From the IMG/VR virus record IMGVR_UViG_3300003323_000052, positions 1-64,000 of that record: 64,000 nucleotides of DNA. The stretch is one strand, 5' to 3'. This DNA comes from a virus. Positions 3,258 through 64,000 of this stretch are shown piece by piece. Made by a program: the position numbers and the translations under genes. The notes under the pieces were generated by a model. That model was not told the DNA's origin. It made no database searches and saw only the letters and a list, made by a program, of their open reading frames with translations. Each line of letters begins with the position of its first letter. Within the stretch, counting starts at the first letter, position 1.

Positions 3258-3336
3258 CTGGGTGTATTGTCAGTCAGGTTAGACGGCCTCGCTTGGAACG
3301 AGGAGGGCGCAGGTTCAAATCCTGCCACCCAGACCA
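3258..3336 (+). tRNA. tRNA-Pro (anticodon UGG)
   Basis: Complete cloverleaf. The 7-bp acceptor CTGGGTG/CACCCAG is perfect. The D stem has a loop containing AGTCAGG. The anticodon stem CCTCG/CGAGG carries loop CTTGGAA (anticodon TGG), and the T arm GCAGG/CCTGC carries TTCAAAT. Discriminator A and CCA are encoded (ACCA at 3333-3336). Acceptor pair C1-G72 is typical of proline tRNAs. Confidence 0.9.
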
Positions 3337-3342
3337 TTTAAA

Positions 3343-3419
3343 GCCCCTGTAGCCCAATTGGTAGAGGCGACGTGCTTAGAACGCGTAAAGTCTCAGTTCG
3401 AATCTGAGCAGTGGCACCA
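3343..3419 (+). tRNA. tRNA with anticodon UAG (Leu), short variable arm
   Basis: The anticodon stem ACGTG/CGCGT carries loop CTTAGAA (anticodon TAG at 3377-3379), which reads CUA leucine codons. T arm CTCAG/CTGAG has loop TTCGAAT, and CCA is encoded. Two oddities are visible. The variable region is only 5 nt, whereas bacterial tRNA-Leu is class II with a long arm. The acceptor stem has a C4:U69 mismatch. Charging identity is therefore uncertain. It starts 6 nt after tRNA-Pro, presumably in the same transcript. Confidence 0.8.
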
Positions 3420-4732: not shown

Positions 4733-5054
4733 GGAAAAGTTTGACGCTTTTCTTGAAAAAGTATCGCACGAAAATAAGACGAACAATGGTTTATCGAGCG
4801 ATGCCCTGGCTGAGATTTTTGAAAAGAGAATCAATCAGATTAGAGAGTCAGAAAAAAAGATTCAGGCATTCAACAAGAATAAAGTTGAGAATTACAAAGC
4901 AAGCTGCCGATTGGAAGGGTTGACGGTAGAAGCTACGCCGCATCCTGAATTGCATAATCGATACGAGATTCGTAGTAAGTGGTCGGAATACCTAGAAGCA
5001 AGCCAAGAGTTAGAAAAGGCAATGAACGAATGTCACTCGACCACGAACAACTAG
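4716..5054 (+). CDS. Hypothetical protein, 112 aa
   Basis: Charged, largely helical protein. Alternative starts are ATG 4716 and ATG 4725; both lie in the 3' end of the upstream gene. No domain recognised. Confidence 0.65.
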   Translation: MEQMNKEKFDAFLEKVSHENKTNNGLSSDALAEIFEKRINQIRESEKKIQAFNKNKVENYKASCRLEGLTVEATPHPELHNRYEIRSKWSEYLEASQELEKAMNECHSTTNN

Positions 5055-5239
5055 AACTGCGATGCCGCGTAGAGTTCGCATGGTGGGTACACATATATCT
5101 TGATATTTTGGAATTCTTTTGCAACCTGATGGGCCGTGAACCAGATTACGATAAGGCTGCCGCTATCATGGTTAAGGGTGCTAAGATTGTGATTGAAGAA
5201 GTCGGGCCAGCGGATAATGACGAACAGTCGCAAGGGTAG
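5030..5239 (+). CDS. Hypothetical protein, 69 aa
   Basis: Unrecognised; aromatic-rich first half. The ATG at 5030 is preceded by AAGG. It overlaps genes on both sides, typical of the tightly packed run leading to the terminase genes. Confidence 0.65.
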   Translation: MSLDHEQLELRCRVEFAWWVHIYLDILEFFCNLMGREPDYDKAAAIMVKGAKIVIEEVGPADNDEQSQG

Positions 5240-5855
5240 TCCGTCTAGCAAAAGACCATATCCGCCAGAGCAATTTACCGACAACTTAAATATCAAGTTC
5301 GCCCCGGCGCACGATGTTCTAGGATGGGTTAAGGAATTTCTCTTTAACGAAGATTCCAAGCTTTACAATTCAGACCATAAGCACTTGGTCGATGCTGACG
5401 TTTGCTTCTTATGGGCGCCGGGCGGATTCGTAAAGGCTGGTCGAGTGGTCTTAGGTCAATGTGAGGAAATTACATTCCGCGCTGGCAAGTGGCAAAAATG
5501 GCGTCAAGAAGAACAAATGCGGGATTGGTTCGGACACGTTCCCGAATACCTAATCACGCTAGACGCGCAATACGCACTTAAATGTTCTGATAACGAATTC
5601 TGCGCTTTGGTTGAGCATGAGTTATATCATGTCGGTCATCAACATGGAATCTTTGGCGAGCCGCTGTTTAATAGTAACGGACTCCCAAAGCTATTCCTGC
5701 GCGGTCACGATGTAGAGGAATTTGTAGGTGTTGTGCGTCGGTATGGCGCAAGCAAAGACGTTGAGAAGTTAATCCAAGCAGCTAAAAACGCACCCGAGGT
5801 ATCGGAAACTAGTATCGCACACGCATGCGGTACATGCTTATTAAAAGTTGCCTAG
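5217..5855 (+). CDS. Putative phage zinc metallopeptidase, 212 aa
   Basis: Contains HELYH (HExxH, residues 134-138) followed by further histidines up to His143-Gly, the zinc and catalytic site expected for the putative phage metallopeptidase family (PF18894-like). Members of that family are often found near the small terminase gene, as here. Substrate unknown. The ATG at 5217 was chosen inside the upstream gene end. The call rests on the motif and context. Confidence 0.8.
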   Translation: MTNSRKGSPSSKRPYPPEQFTDNLNIKFAPAHDVLGWVKEFLFNEDSKLYNSDHKHLVDADVCFLWAPGGFVKAGRVVLGQCEEITFRAGKWQKWRQEEQMRDWFGHVPEYLITLDAQYALKCSDNEFCALVEHELYHVGHQHGIFGEPLFNSNGLPKLFLRGHDVEEFVGVVRRYGASKDVEKLIQAAKNAPEVSETSIAHACGTCLLKVA

Positions 5856-5866
5856 AATAAAACAAA

Positions 5867-6322
5867 ATGGCTAAACTTACAGAACCAATGAAATTGTTTA
5901 TCGTTCAGGCGCTGGCTTGTTTCGATACGCCCACACAGGTAGCAAAGGCTGTAAAAGAGGAATTCGGCGTAGAGATTACACGCCAGCAAGTCCAGCGATA
6001 CGACCCAACTAAAGTTTTAGGTGAGGATTGCTCAAAGAAAAACAGGGCAATCTTTGAAGCTACGAGAAAAGAATTCCTTGAGGACGTAGGTCGAATCCCT
6101 ATCGCGCAACAAGCATATCGACTGCGGGTGTTGCAACGCACCCTAGATAAAGTTGAGGGCCAAGGCAATACTGCAATGGTGTCTCAGATTCTAGAGCAGG
6201 CAGCGAAAGAATCAGGCGGCGCATTTACCAACAAAACAAAGCTGGAACATAGCGGCGAAATTCGTCAGCCTGAACTTAAACTTGTGCTAAATGGAATTAA
6301 TCCTTCACCCAAGACAGACTGA
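5867..6322 (+). CDS. terS: Terminase small subunit (DUF2280 family)
   Basis: The 151-aa protein opens with the conserved FIVQALACFDTPTQVAKAV region followed by a QQVQRYDPTK motif, diagnostic of DUF2280 small terminases. The N-terminal part is a DNA-recognition HTH that marks the packaging site and hands DNA to TerL. It overlaps the TerL start by 32 nt. Confidence 0.9.
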   Translation: MAKLTEPMKLFIVQALACFDTPTQVAKAVKEEFGVEITRQQVQRYDPTKVLGEDCSKKNRAIFEATRKEFLEDVGRIPIAQQAYRLRVLQRTLDKVEGQGNTAMVSQILEQAAKESGGAFTNKTKLEHSGEIRQPELKLVLNGINPSPKTD

Positions 6323-7747
6323 GGCGTTCCTCAGCCAAGCTACCGAGATTCTTTACGGTGGTGCGGCTGGGGGAGGTGCTTAGCCCCTCTAGTCTAAATC
6401 TGGAGGGGCGAATAGAGTAAATCTCACCTGATGCGCTCTGCCGCAATCTCTTGGTGTACCGCTATACCGGGATTGCAGGTTTATATCTTCCGCCGCGTAT
6501 CGGATGACTTGGCTAAAAACCACATGGAAGGCCCGACCGGGTTCCCCTCCTTGCTGTCGGAATGGATTGAAGATAAGTTCGTAAAGATCAATTGGTCTAA
6601 GAACTTCATTGAGTTTTGGAACGGCGCAAAGATTCACCTTTGCCACTGCCAGTACGAAAAAGACCGATTCAAATATCAGGGCGCAGAGATTCACGTTCTG
6701 ATGATTGACGAATTAACGCACTTTACGGACGTCATTTATCGTTATTTGCGTGGTCGCTGTCGTTTGGGCGGGCTGAAAGTTCCTGAGCAATATATCGGAT
6801 TATTCCCGCGAATTATCAACGGATCAAATCCGGGCGGTATCGGGCACAACTGGGTCAAAGCAACATTCATTGATGAAGCTGCACCAATGGTTATTACTCA
6901 GCAAGAAAAGGCTGAGGGCGGCATGCGTAGGCAGTATATTCCTGCAAAGCTTGACGATAATCCAACACTAAAAGAAACTGACCCGGACTACGTTGACCGC
7001 TTGGAGGGTCTTGGTAATCCAGCTTTGATTAAGGCGATGCGCGACGGCGACTGGAATATCGTTGCCGGTGGCATGTTTGACGACTTGTGGAAGCAAGACA
7101 TACACGTCATTAAACCGTTCACAATCCCCGCTAGCTGGCGCATTGACCGTTCGTTTGACTGGGGTAGCAGCAAACCGTTTTCTGTAGGTTGGTGGGCTGA
7201 ATCTGACGGAACTGAAGCCATTATGGCTGATGGCTCTAAGCGCACTTTCCCTCGCGGCACACTGTTTCGCATTGCCGAGTGGTACGGGTGGAACGGCAAG
7301 CCAAACGAAGGCTTAAAAATGTCCGATGCCGGTATCGCAGACGGTATCGTAAAACACCAGATTGATTACGGCTTTGCTGACCGCGTAAAAGCAGGGCCAG
7401 CGGATAGTAGCATCTTTGACGAAACAAACGGCGACAGCCCGGCGAAGATTCAAGAGCGTCACAAAGTAAGATGGGAAAAAGCGGATAAATCCCCCGGCTC
7501 CCGCAAGCGAGGATGGCAACTACTAAGGGGTAGATTGCTCGCCTCACTTGCAGAGCGCATGGAAGAACCCGGATTATTCGTGTTTGATAATTGCCGACAA
7601 TTCATTCGGACAATTCCCGTACTGCCACGTGACGATAAAGACCCTGACGATATCGACACTGACGCAGAGGATCACATCGCCGATGAAACGCGATATCGAA
7701 TCCTCGCAATCAAGCGCATCGCAACTGTCGAGCAGCTACGGGTTTAA
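6291..7747 (+). CDS. terL: Terminase large subunit, interrupted in the Walker A motif by 41 nt
   Basis: The packaging ATPase/nuclease is read in two frames. From ATG 6291 the first 29 residues end with GGAAGGG, the first part of the Walker A loop, then Ala and TAG (6381). From AAA at 6419 in another frame the protein continues KSHLMR and runs to 7747. It has Walker B (VLMIDE) and the C-terminal nuclease acidic residues (FDWGSS, DHIADE). Joining codon 6375-6377 to 6419 gives a seamless 471-aa TerL with GGAAGGGKS, matching the family. A start at 6431 alone would lack the P-loop and could not hydrolyse ATP. How the gap is crossed is unknown. Confidence 0.9.
6378..6418 (+). other. 41-nt hairpin insert inside terL (bypass-element candidate)
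   Basis: The segment carries frame-0 TAG stops at 6381 and 6390 and, in the downstream frame, TAG at 6413. Bases 6383-6392 and 6400-6409 form a 10-bp stem (one G-U pair) with a 7-nt loop. The length is not a multiple of three. Its right part contains a second copy of the ancestral junction (TAAATCT then GGAGG, 6395-6406). Confidence 0.75.
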
Positions 7748-41472: not shown

Positions 41473-42183
41473 TCACGTTGCTTCGCGCAAATTGGCAATG
41501 CGGTTATCTAGTTTGTCGCGGTTGATATGCTTAAGTGCTTTTTTAGGCCATTCACCATAGAACAAAGCCCATGCAACGCGGTGTCCAGCAAAACGATACG
41601 GGCCAGTAGTTATTGCCAAATAACCCTTCACATCAACATGCCCAGCATCGCCCTCCTTATTCAGGCGGCACAAGTCACTATTCTTACGAGTGATAATTCC
41701 AGTCTCCGGGTCATAGTCGAAAACCTCTCGTAATTGCAATGCGGTAGGGCGGCTAGACCATGTTTTCTGTGTTTCTCTCTTTGGCATCAAAACTTTTTCA
41801 GTCGGCAGACCAATGCGAAGTCTGTAGTGAAGAACAGATTCGTGAAGATCTAAATGCTTTGCCCAATCACGAACTGTCATTCGCAACCCATCTTTTTCAA
41901 GATAATGACAAGTGCGTTGATTTAGCCGCTGCTCCCTCCTATCTGCCCACTTGCAGTTACCAGGCTCATAGTTTCCGTTGTTGTCGATGCGCTCTATAGT
42001 CAGCCCTGTTGGCCGAGGCCCCATATCGGCATAGAAGTTATCGAAGCTATTTAGCCATCGTTCGCAAATCTTGATCCCTCTGGCACCGTAGTTTTTGAAT
42101 TGCGCATGCTTCGTATTCAAGCACCGTTGCTTCATCCCTTGCCATGTTTTATAGACTGGATCGTCTGAGCGGTTATTCTTCAT
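41473..42183 (-). CDS. Two-domain HNH homing endonuclease
   Basis: 236 aa. The N-terminal half has YKTWQGMKQRCLN, then YGARGIKICERW and IERIDNNGNYEPGNCKWA, a phage HNH-like/DNA-binding module. The C-terminal half has FDYDPETGIITRK, HRVAW and KHINRDKLDNRIANLRE (HNH_3), with Lys where Asp usually precedes the catalytic His. The protein ends soon after this motif, so a downstream AP2-type domain is missing. Activity uncertain. Confidence 0.88.
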   Translation of the reverse strand: MKNNRSDDPVYKTWQGMKQRCLNTKHAQFKNYGARGIKICERWLNSFDNFYADMGPRPTGLTIERIDNNGNYEPGNCKWADRREQRLNQRTCHYLEKDGLRMTVRDWAKHLDLHESVLHYRLRIGLPTEKVLMPKRETQKTWSSRPTALQLREVFDYDPETGIITRKNSDLCRLNKEGDAGHVDVKGYLAITTGPYRFAGHRVAWALFYGEWPKKALKHINRDKLDNRIANLREAT

Positions 42184-49238: not shown

Positions 49239-49269
49239 TTGACATCCTGCCTACTAGTTAGCGCAGGCA
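49239..49269 (-). other. IS200/IS605-type right end with omega-RNA boundary
   Basis: On the minus strand a TGCCT/AGGCA hairpin spans the tnpB stop codon and is followed by GGATGTCAA, which I recall as the usual right boundary of tnpB elements in proteobacteria. The 3' end of tnpB plus this hairpin would form the omega RNA, with the guide read from 49238 downwards into the recT leader. Confidence 0.6.
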
Positions 49270-50496
49270 TCCTACAGCGTCATGCGAAAATTCGCTGATC
49301 GCTTCGGCGGGTTCCTGTTTCACGGAGTGGCCTTGCTGCACCATCTCTCCACAGGCTAACACGCGATGTCCTCGCGCTAAAATATTGATCGAACCAACTA
49401 CGTCGGCGTTATTTTCGTAACCGCAATTTATACACAAAAATTTAGCTTGTGTTTTTCGATTGTCTTTTGATACATGGTCACAGCATGGGCAAGTTTGGCT
49501 AGTATATTGCGCAGGAACCTTTAAAAGCATTCCTCCGTTCCATGCTAGCTTGTATTCTAGTTGTCTATAAAACTCGCCCCATCCTTGATCCAATATAGCA
49601 CGATTGAGGCCGGATTTCTGGCGCACATTTTTACCATGCTTTTCCTTATTGCCTTTAGCCGATTTCGACATATTCATTATCTGCAAATCTTCAACGCAGA
49701 CGAGCGCGTGGTTTTTACTGATCGCTGATGTGGCTTTGTGCAGAAAGTCTTTTCTAGCATTGGCAATATGAGTATGAAGCTTTGTTACTCGTTTCTTTGC
49801 TTTCTTCCAATTGTTACTGAATTTTACTTTGCGGCTCATGCGGCGCTGGTAACGCGCAAGACGTTTTTGATACTTCTTAAAGCTGTTGAGTGGTTCTATA
49901 AAACTCCCATCGCTCATAGTAGCGAACCGAGAAATACCAAGATCGATACCGATTGCTGTTGCCGAAGATGGAATAGGTTGCTCTATTTCTTGTTGCGTCA
50001 AAACCAAAACAAACCATTTACCGGCAGATTTACTTATAGTGGCGTTGCGAATCTCCCCAATAATATCGCGGCTTTTTCGATAACGAAGCCATCCAAGCTT
50101 TAGCAAAAAAATTCGTTCATTAACTTGATCGAGTTTAATCTTTTTTTTATCAGGATAGCGAAAGCTATCACCACTGCTTTTTAGCTTGAATTTTGGGAAT
50201 TCAGCACGTTTGGAGAAAAAATTCTTATATGCCTTTTCCAAGTCTTTTAATTTCTGTTGCAATGGATGGCATGGCGCATTCTTCAGCCACGGAATTTCAG
50301 CACTATTGCGCCATTCAGTCAAATGTTTTGCCATTGTGAAATAGCTGATAAATTCACCTCCATTCTCGTAATTCTCTTTTTGCATCGCAAGAGCCTTGTT
50401 ATATACGAACCGGCACGCGCCAGCGAACTGGCGCATTTTCCGCTCTTGTTCGCCAGTCGGCATCAGTTCAAATTTAAAGGCTTGTATACGTTTCAT
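49258..50496 (-). CDS. tnpB: TnpB RNA-guided nuclease (IS200/IS605 OrfB), no TnpA
   Basis: 412 aa and intact. RuvC-like catalytic Asp185 (GIDLGIS), Glu269 (VEDLQ) and Asp365 (NNADVVG) are all present, with a zinc ribbon (Cys336, Cys338/339, Cys355, Cys358). No transposase gene lies nearby, and upstream sequence is coding almost to its start, so a left end is not evident. It is either a lone mobile element or a domesticated nuclease. It lies between recT and a small early gene. Confidence 0.93.
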   Translation of the reverse strand: MKRIQAFKFELMPTGEQERKMRQFAGACRFVYNKALAMQKENYENGGEFISYFTMAKHLTEWRNSAEIPWLKNAPCHPLQQKLKDLEKAYKNFFSKRAEFPKFKLKSSGDSFRYPDKKKIKLDQVNERIFLLKLGWLRYRKSRDIIGEIRNATISKSAGKWFVLVLTQQEIEQPIPSSATAIGIDLGISRFATMSDGSFIEPLNSFKKYQKRLARYQRRMSRKVKFSNNWKKAKKRVTKLHTHIANARKDFLHKATSAISKNHALVCVEDLQIMNMSKSAKGNKEKHGKNVRQKSGLNRAILDQGWGEFYRQLEYKLAWNGGMLLKVPAQYTSQTCPCCDHVSKDNRKTQAKFLCINCGYENNADVVGSINILARGHRVLACGEMVQQGHSVKQEPAEAISEFSHDAVGCLR

Positions 50497-63603: not shown

Positions 63604-64000
63604 GCGAGTATTCCATCACTACAAGGATTGTGAGGAGTTTGATAGCAATCTTTGGAAATATGTTCCGCCAGAAGATCGGCAAGCCTACATAGATAAATCT
63701 GCGGCGCTTATGCTCGATTGCAGGGCGTTTGAGGCAGCAATGAATCGCGCTGTAGATGAATGGCCTAATTCATGCGAGGCAGCGCTAACAGCTTCTACAA
63801 TGAATCATCAAGCTTGGCTAGGACATGCTGGTTGCGCCATAAATCACAATGCACCGGAAGATTTAACGCGCCTAGCATGGAGAATGCTAACAGAAGATCA
63901 GCAAGATTTGGCGAATGCTGCCGCTGATAGGTCTATTGCTAGGTGGCGTGAGAATTACGTAGCAAAATTAAAAATGGAGAAAAGCAAATGCCAAAACATG
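63593..64000 (+). CDS. Conserved-type phage protein (C-terminus outside window)
   Basis: At least 136 aa and still open at the edge. EFDSNLWKYVPPEDRQAYIDKSAALM, then CEAALTASTMNHQAWLGHAGC is a common phage pattern downstream of ParB-like genes. Function unknown. Another ATG at 63988, with GGAG upstream, probably begins the next gene. Confidence 0.75.
   Translation, partial: MKLKRVFHHYKDCEEFDSNLWKYVPPEDRQAYIDKSAALMLDCRAFEAAMNRAVDEWPNSCEAALTASTMNHQAWLGHAGCAINHNAPEDLTRLAWRMLTEDQQDLANAAADRSIARWRENYVAKLKMEKSKCQNM

Follow-up and report, generated by a model that had tools for sequence, protein, structure and literature searches.

The window analysed here is a stretch of 64,000 nucleotides of viral DNA, and the phage that it comes from has its own record of 67,960 bases (G000), which also holds portal, head, tape measure, tail, endolysin/lysis, recombination and replication genes. 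The terminase region contains a DUF2280 gene in the position of the small terminase gene, which precedes terL in Rhizobium phage RHph_TM3_3_3 as well (Table 1). For the ORF before it (window 5193-5855) the transposase label given by phrog_513 conflicts with a Pfam match to PhageMetallopep (5.9e-37), and the metallopeptidase assignment looks right.

The terL gene itself is interrupted. Its frame from the ATG at 6291 reads MELILHPRQTEAFLSQATEILYGGAAGGG, followed by one alanine codon (GCT, 6378-6380) and a TAG stop, and the remaining part of TerL starts at AAA 6419 as KSHLMR and stays open for 442 codons. An offset of 41 nt separates the two parts, and the split lies inside the P-loop, GGAAGGG // KSHLMR. 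As another TAG is located in the frame of the second part, no single frameshift can join them, and because the insert sits in the ATPase P-loop it has to be omitted precisely from the protein. The original prediction had described this layout, with the 41-nt segment splitting the P-loop, a 10-bp hairpin and stops in both frames, and all of these elements and their coordinates held upon re-examination. It had also named a second, intact terL as an observation that would count against bypass, and none was found in the G000 record. Split phage enzymes are known, such as Aeh1 NrdA (PMC2988022), and an ATG is present at 6431, so that two separate polypeptides assembling into a working terminase could be imagined. 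However, the last P-loop glycine and the catalytic lysine end up on opposite sides of the split, and since the internal ATG lies past K and S the second polypeptide would be devoid of both, which makes this explanation very improbable.

Table 1. Features of the interrupted terL region of the window phage (window coordinates).
Feature	Position	Strand	Evidence or counterpart
DUF2280 gene, small-terminase position, overlaps terL start	5867..6322	+	Pfam PF10045, 1.8e-43
terL ORF1, 29 codons, through P-loop GGAAGGG	6291..6377	+	sequence
Conserved 5' flank GCTGGGGGAGGT	6366..6377	+	identical in G001, synonymous positions included
Candidate take-off codon GGT (Gly)	6375..6377	+	putative; GGT also precedes the insert in G001, L125 and L126
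41-nt insert	6378..6418	+	homologous 42-nt insert at L089 17671-17712 (G001)
TAG stop, ORF1 frame	6381..6383	+	sequence
10-bp hairpin, arms 6383-6392 and 6400-6409	6383..6409	+	G001 counterpart of 12 bp with GUAA loop
Shine-Dalgarno-like GGAGG	6402..6406	+	sequence, pairing energy computed; putative role
TAG stop, ORF2 frame	6413..6415	+	sequence
Candidate landing triplet AGT	6416..6418	+	putative; AGC in G001 and L125
terL ORF2, KSHLMR to C-terminus	6419..7747	+	phrog_979 terminase large subunit, 1.6e-24; strong purifying selection

Comparison with 80 terL relatives fetched from viral contigs, a check that had been proposed along with the prediction, showed that the P-loop is uninterrupted in 78 of them, while one (L041) starts too late to be read. 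The remaining one (L052) belongs to G001, a 58.6-kb phage record with a GC content of 61% as compared to 46% in the window phage, and is interrupted at the same codon by an insert of 42 nt that is identical to the G000 insert at 30 of 42 aligned positions. The flanks are also shared, all 12 nt before the insert and 17 of 18 nt behind it being identical. At the fourfold degenerate sites of the second exon the two genes are only 31% identical, i.e. neutral sites are saturated and neutral sequence would be scrambled, and therefore the insert is conserved beyond neutral expectation (p ~1e-7 for 30/42 at the neutral rate). No long DNA match between G000 and G001 was found outside terL. At the level of sequence comparison this confirms that the insert is real, and old rather than recent. 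An assembly or sequencing error, which would have undone the original prediction, is largely refuted by the presence of a homologous but diverged insert in G001, an independent genome, and by the endonuclease association described below, and its probability is negligible.

The G001 insert is in frame and carries a single TAA, which could point to stop readthrough, frameshifting or a reassigned TAG, giving a protein with extra residues. Against this, the G000 insert shifts the frame and contains stops in both relevant frames, TAG serves as a regular stop at the end of normal genes in every one of these genomes, and any extra residues from readthrough or a single frameshift would end up inside the P-loop. 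We therefore consider such a protein extremely unlikely.

The insert of the window phage folds with -20.0 kcal/mol (z = -4.1) and none of 200 shuffled sequences was as stable. Its counterpart in G001 is stronger still. Each hairpin occurs as a single copy, no other such hairpin being present in the whole 67,960-base record and likewise in G001, so that a dispersed REP-like hairpin element was ruled out; the byp elements of Magnusiomyces capitatus mitochondria, in contrast, occupy 81 positions in one genome (PMC5009743). No double compensatory changes were seen in the pair counts of the G000 and G001 hairpins, and hence the fold is supported by stability and conservation and not by covariation. 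Folded together with its flanks, the insert becomes part of a single long, imperfect hairpin in which the two junctions are close neighbours. The GGAGG ends 9 nt before the candidate landing triplet, with equal spacing in G000 and G001.

The terL gene is under strong purifying selection in both phages, so there is no sign of decay. Changes in terL assigned to the G000 branch comprise 111 synonymous and 22 nonsynonymous ones, and exon 2 of G001 is 91.7% identical to that of the uninterrupted relative G002 with a dN of 0.023 and a dS of 0.36. The G001 gene is a mosaic. At fourfold sites its exon 1 matches G000 at 10 of 14 and G002 at 3 of 15 positions, whereas its exon 2 matches G000 at 48 of 153 and G002 at 158 of 199, and the switch point is located within a few codons past the insert. 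This is the kind of pattern left by homing gene conversion, although ordinary recombination could also produce one.

Further P-loop inserts, in a size range of about 25-60 nt, were sought by pattern scans. In the viral contigs G001 alone was recovered; the remaining matches were unrelated glycine-rich or out-of-frame sequences. The same kind of scan of genome contigs returned out-of-frame dnaA matches only, and when the insert was compared with phages and plasmids by BLAST, the matches obtained were all weak and chance-like.

In G001 the ORF between terS and terL (L089 16887-17615), directly upstream of terL, is a GIY-YIG homing-endonuclease gene. Relatives were found by scans with the G001 endonuclease and with an alignment of it. 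Five of them all match GIY-YIG in Pfam and have Tyr, Arg, Glu and Asn invariant at GIY-YIG-like positions. The relatives lie immediately upstream of terL, and the terL genes in question share 25-49% identity with the TerL of the window phage, which itself has no endonuclease gene beside its terL. Five weak relatives (L130-L134), matching mainly in the DNA-binding part, were left out of the counts, and among 784 prokaryote genomes only helix-turn-helix matches were obtained, in one genome.

The terL genes next to these endonucleases carry P-loop inserts of very different length. In L125, a single contig with an adjoining endonuclease gene, the P-loop reads GGT-TAGC-AAA (4771-4780), a 4-nt insert with a stop. 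In L126, counted once with the identical L127, it reads GGT-TAG-GGT-GGG-AAA (3294-3302), with a 6-nt insert and an endonuclease relative upstream. In L118, whose terL belongs to a different family, the P-loop insert measures 66 nt (6106-6171), keeps the frame and includes a TAG stop. Every short insert carries a stop. Intact relatives of L118 (Acidovorax phage AP1) and of L125 (a Rhizobium phage) both have GGSAGGGKT. Vibrio phages 1.170.O (MG592537.1; L119, L120) and 424E50-1 (OX241437.1; L122, L121) show a P-loop interruption of about 240 nt and a GIY-YIG gene upstream. A group I intron was identified in 1.170.O (Rfam, 66.8 bits) and alignable sequence is present in 424E50-1. The annotation of OX241437.1 lists the first terL exon as a short terminase gene of its own. 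Finally, L128 (4001-4950) has an endonuclease relative upstream and an intact P-loop, GGAAGSGKS, in which the codons GGC TCC GGA replace the usual glycine codons.

Interrupted terL genes were found in 6 of 7 endonuclease-bearing lineages and at 1 of 69 loci without the endonuclease (Fisher 2e-7), and when only short inserts were considered in 4 of 5 endonuclease-bearing lineages (Fisher 2e-5); these p-values serve as a guide only, as the endonuclease-free loci all come from the terL family of the window phage. Among the 69 window-family loci with at least 700 nt of upstream sequence the endonuclease gene was present in G001 alone. The window phage is the sole exception among the endonuclease-free loci, the other 68 of 69 being uninterrupted. 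In addition, all 4 short-insert lineages use the codon GCT for the second alanine of the P-loop, as compared to 9 of 70 uninterrupted genes (p 6e-4), which would be expected if this codon falls in the recognition site of the endonuclease.

Many insert lengths at one site, the short ones all with a stop, could also be inactivating scars of endonuclease cleavage and imperfect repair in a dead terL. This is improbable, as both G000 and G001 have an open ORF2 under strong purifying selection, the insert, too, is conserved beyond neutral expectation, and G000 has otherwise kept its head, tail, lysis and replication genes. Another possibility is removal of the insert from the RNA by splicing or a cut-and-ligate process of a kind so far unknown. 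The junctions are close to each other in the long hairpin, group I introns occupy the same region of terL in the endonuclease-bearing Vibrio phages, and in phage ICP1 terL splicing was shown beside a gene for T5orf172, an endonuclease of the GIY-YIG superfamily (PMC10448857). In ICP1 that gene lies beside the N-terminal terL exon, the same layout as in both Vibrio phages. However, the collaborative homing of ICP1 involves a spliced intron (PMC10448857), whereas inserts of 41-42 nt are far below any known self-splicing intron, and Rfam gave no intron match in G000 or G001. No group I intron exceeded the cut-off in the records of L118, L125, L126, G000 and G001 with the covariance model. The 4- and 6-nt members of the series cannot be introns, which favours ribosome hopping, and RNA removal is therefore unlikely. 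Translational bypass, as originally predicted, is supported as still the best reading.

We consider it probable that the inserts are endonuclease-resistant terL alleles spread by homing, with the introns being spliced and the short inserts being hopped by ribosomes. The free-standing GIY-YIG endonuclease would recognise the codons of the terL P-loop, and an insert at this position would destroy the recognition site and travel with the endonuclease gene by gene conversion. The long inserts would be self-splicing group I introns, whereas the short ones (4, 6, 41, 42 and probably 66 nt) would be passed by the ribosome. Peptidyl-tRNA-Gly would leave GGU, the skip being aided by the hairpin where one is present, and land on AGU or AGC (or GGU) right before the next codon, so that GGAAGGGKS is produced. 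In the window phage the insert would have been kept, while the endonuclease was lost or never acquired. Taken together, the series and the position of the inserts, along with the endonuclease gene that usually adjoins them, suggest that they block the endonuclease and that ribosomes jump over them to make whole TerL.

In G000, G001, L125 and L126 alike, GGAAGGGKS would be regained by a hop from GGU. The match between take-off and landing codons varies. It is imperfect in G000 (GGT/AGT) and G001 (GGT/AGC), where the first position differs, and complete in L126 (GGT/GGT). The partial match had been held against simple bypass at the outset, and this mismatch stands, as the landing AGU would pair with tRNA-Gly at 2 of 3 positions only. 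A stop directly follows the take-off codon in L125 and L126, in G000 GCT precedes the TAG, and G001 is without an early stop. Two other routes were rejected. After landing on a GGC within the insert, the ribosome would meet the TAG in G000, and in G001 extra residues would precede the lysine of the P-loop. Take-off from GCT would place an alanine before that lysine.

To our knowledge, evidence for efficient programmed bypassing in bacteria comes almost entirely from T4 gene 60. A study by Bonocora in 2011 (cited in PMC8300805) reportedly dealt with the gene 60 bypass together with the mobA homing endonuclease. The analogy to gene 60 had been drawn in the original prediction and turned out to be closer than noted, since a homing endonuclease gene adjoins the insert of the relative G001, much as mobA is found in the vicinity of gene 60. 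In both systems a short hairpin-bearing gap (50 nt in T4, 41-42 nt in G000 and G001) interrupts a phage enzyme gene, the take-off codon encodes glycine, a homing endonuclease gene is nearby (here beside terL in G001, not in G000) and the gap is thought to protect against cleavage (PMC5009743). In gene 60, gaps of up to about 56 nt are bypassed with high processivity (PMC11194080), a range that includes the 41 nt of G000 and the 42 nt of G001 and is exceeded by the 66-nt gap of L118. T4 has a minimal Shine-Dalgarno sequence 6 nt before the landing site with a modest effect (PMC5009743). The differences are that here the gap is in the terL P-loop, the endonuclease is GIY-YIG rather than HNH, relatives have gaps of 4-6 nt and the landing match in G000 and G001 is imperfect. 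The hairpin begins 5 nt past the take-off codon, whereas that of T4 contains it. No KKYK-like nascent-peptide signal was apparent in the N-terminal part encoded by ORF1, which resembles that of uninterrupted relatives. A mechanism that works like gene 60 is thus favoured, but since several of its features are absent here we do not assign the locus to the gene 60 type in the strict sense.

Stop-hops are on record from synthetic constructs (Weiss 1987, as covered in the review PMC5009743). The GGT TAG GGT of L126/L127 is similar in that matched codons flank a stop, and we regard it as a candidate natural 6-nt stop-hop; no natural in-frame stop-hop was known to that review (PMC5009743). A suspected bypass in Streptomyces phage Hau3 is likewise located in a terminase gene, but is tied to a UUA codon and has a much shorter gap, for which the review suggests regulation and not avoidance of an insert (PMC5009743). 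Besides this suggestion no report of bypass in terL was found in the literature covered, which mostly did not extend to subscription journals.

In our judgement the chances are even that a GIY-YIG family attacking the terL P-loop has repeatedly selected hopped inserts, including natural 4- and 6-nt stop-hops, so that bypass would be a recurring phage immunity to a selfish nuclease and not an oddity of T4. If true, this would be a second and apparently independent case of bypass, in another gene and with another class of endonuclease, and it would include the first candidate natural stop-hops. The length series (4, 6, 41, 42 and 66 nt, and intron) would then show how such gaps originate and which signals are really needed, and the immunity hypothesis would become directly testable.

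Other features were observed in the window. A short tandem coding repeat (APDRLAP...) lies at the contig end (2-160), and tRNA-Pro (TGG) and tRNA-Leu (TAG) genes are located at 3258-3419. An ORF on the minus strand (41473-42183) encodes an HNH_3 endonuclease with the HNH motif at its C-terminal end, and another minus-strand ORF (49258-50496), labelled as transposase by phrog_506, adjoins RecT-like and exonuclease genes. A phosphoadenosine phosphosulfate reductase-like auxiliary metabolic gene reaches into the very end (63988-64000) and lies mostly past the window (L088 88-1320).
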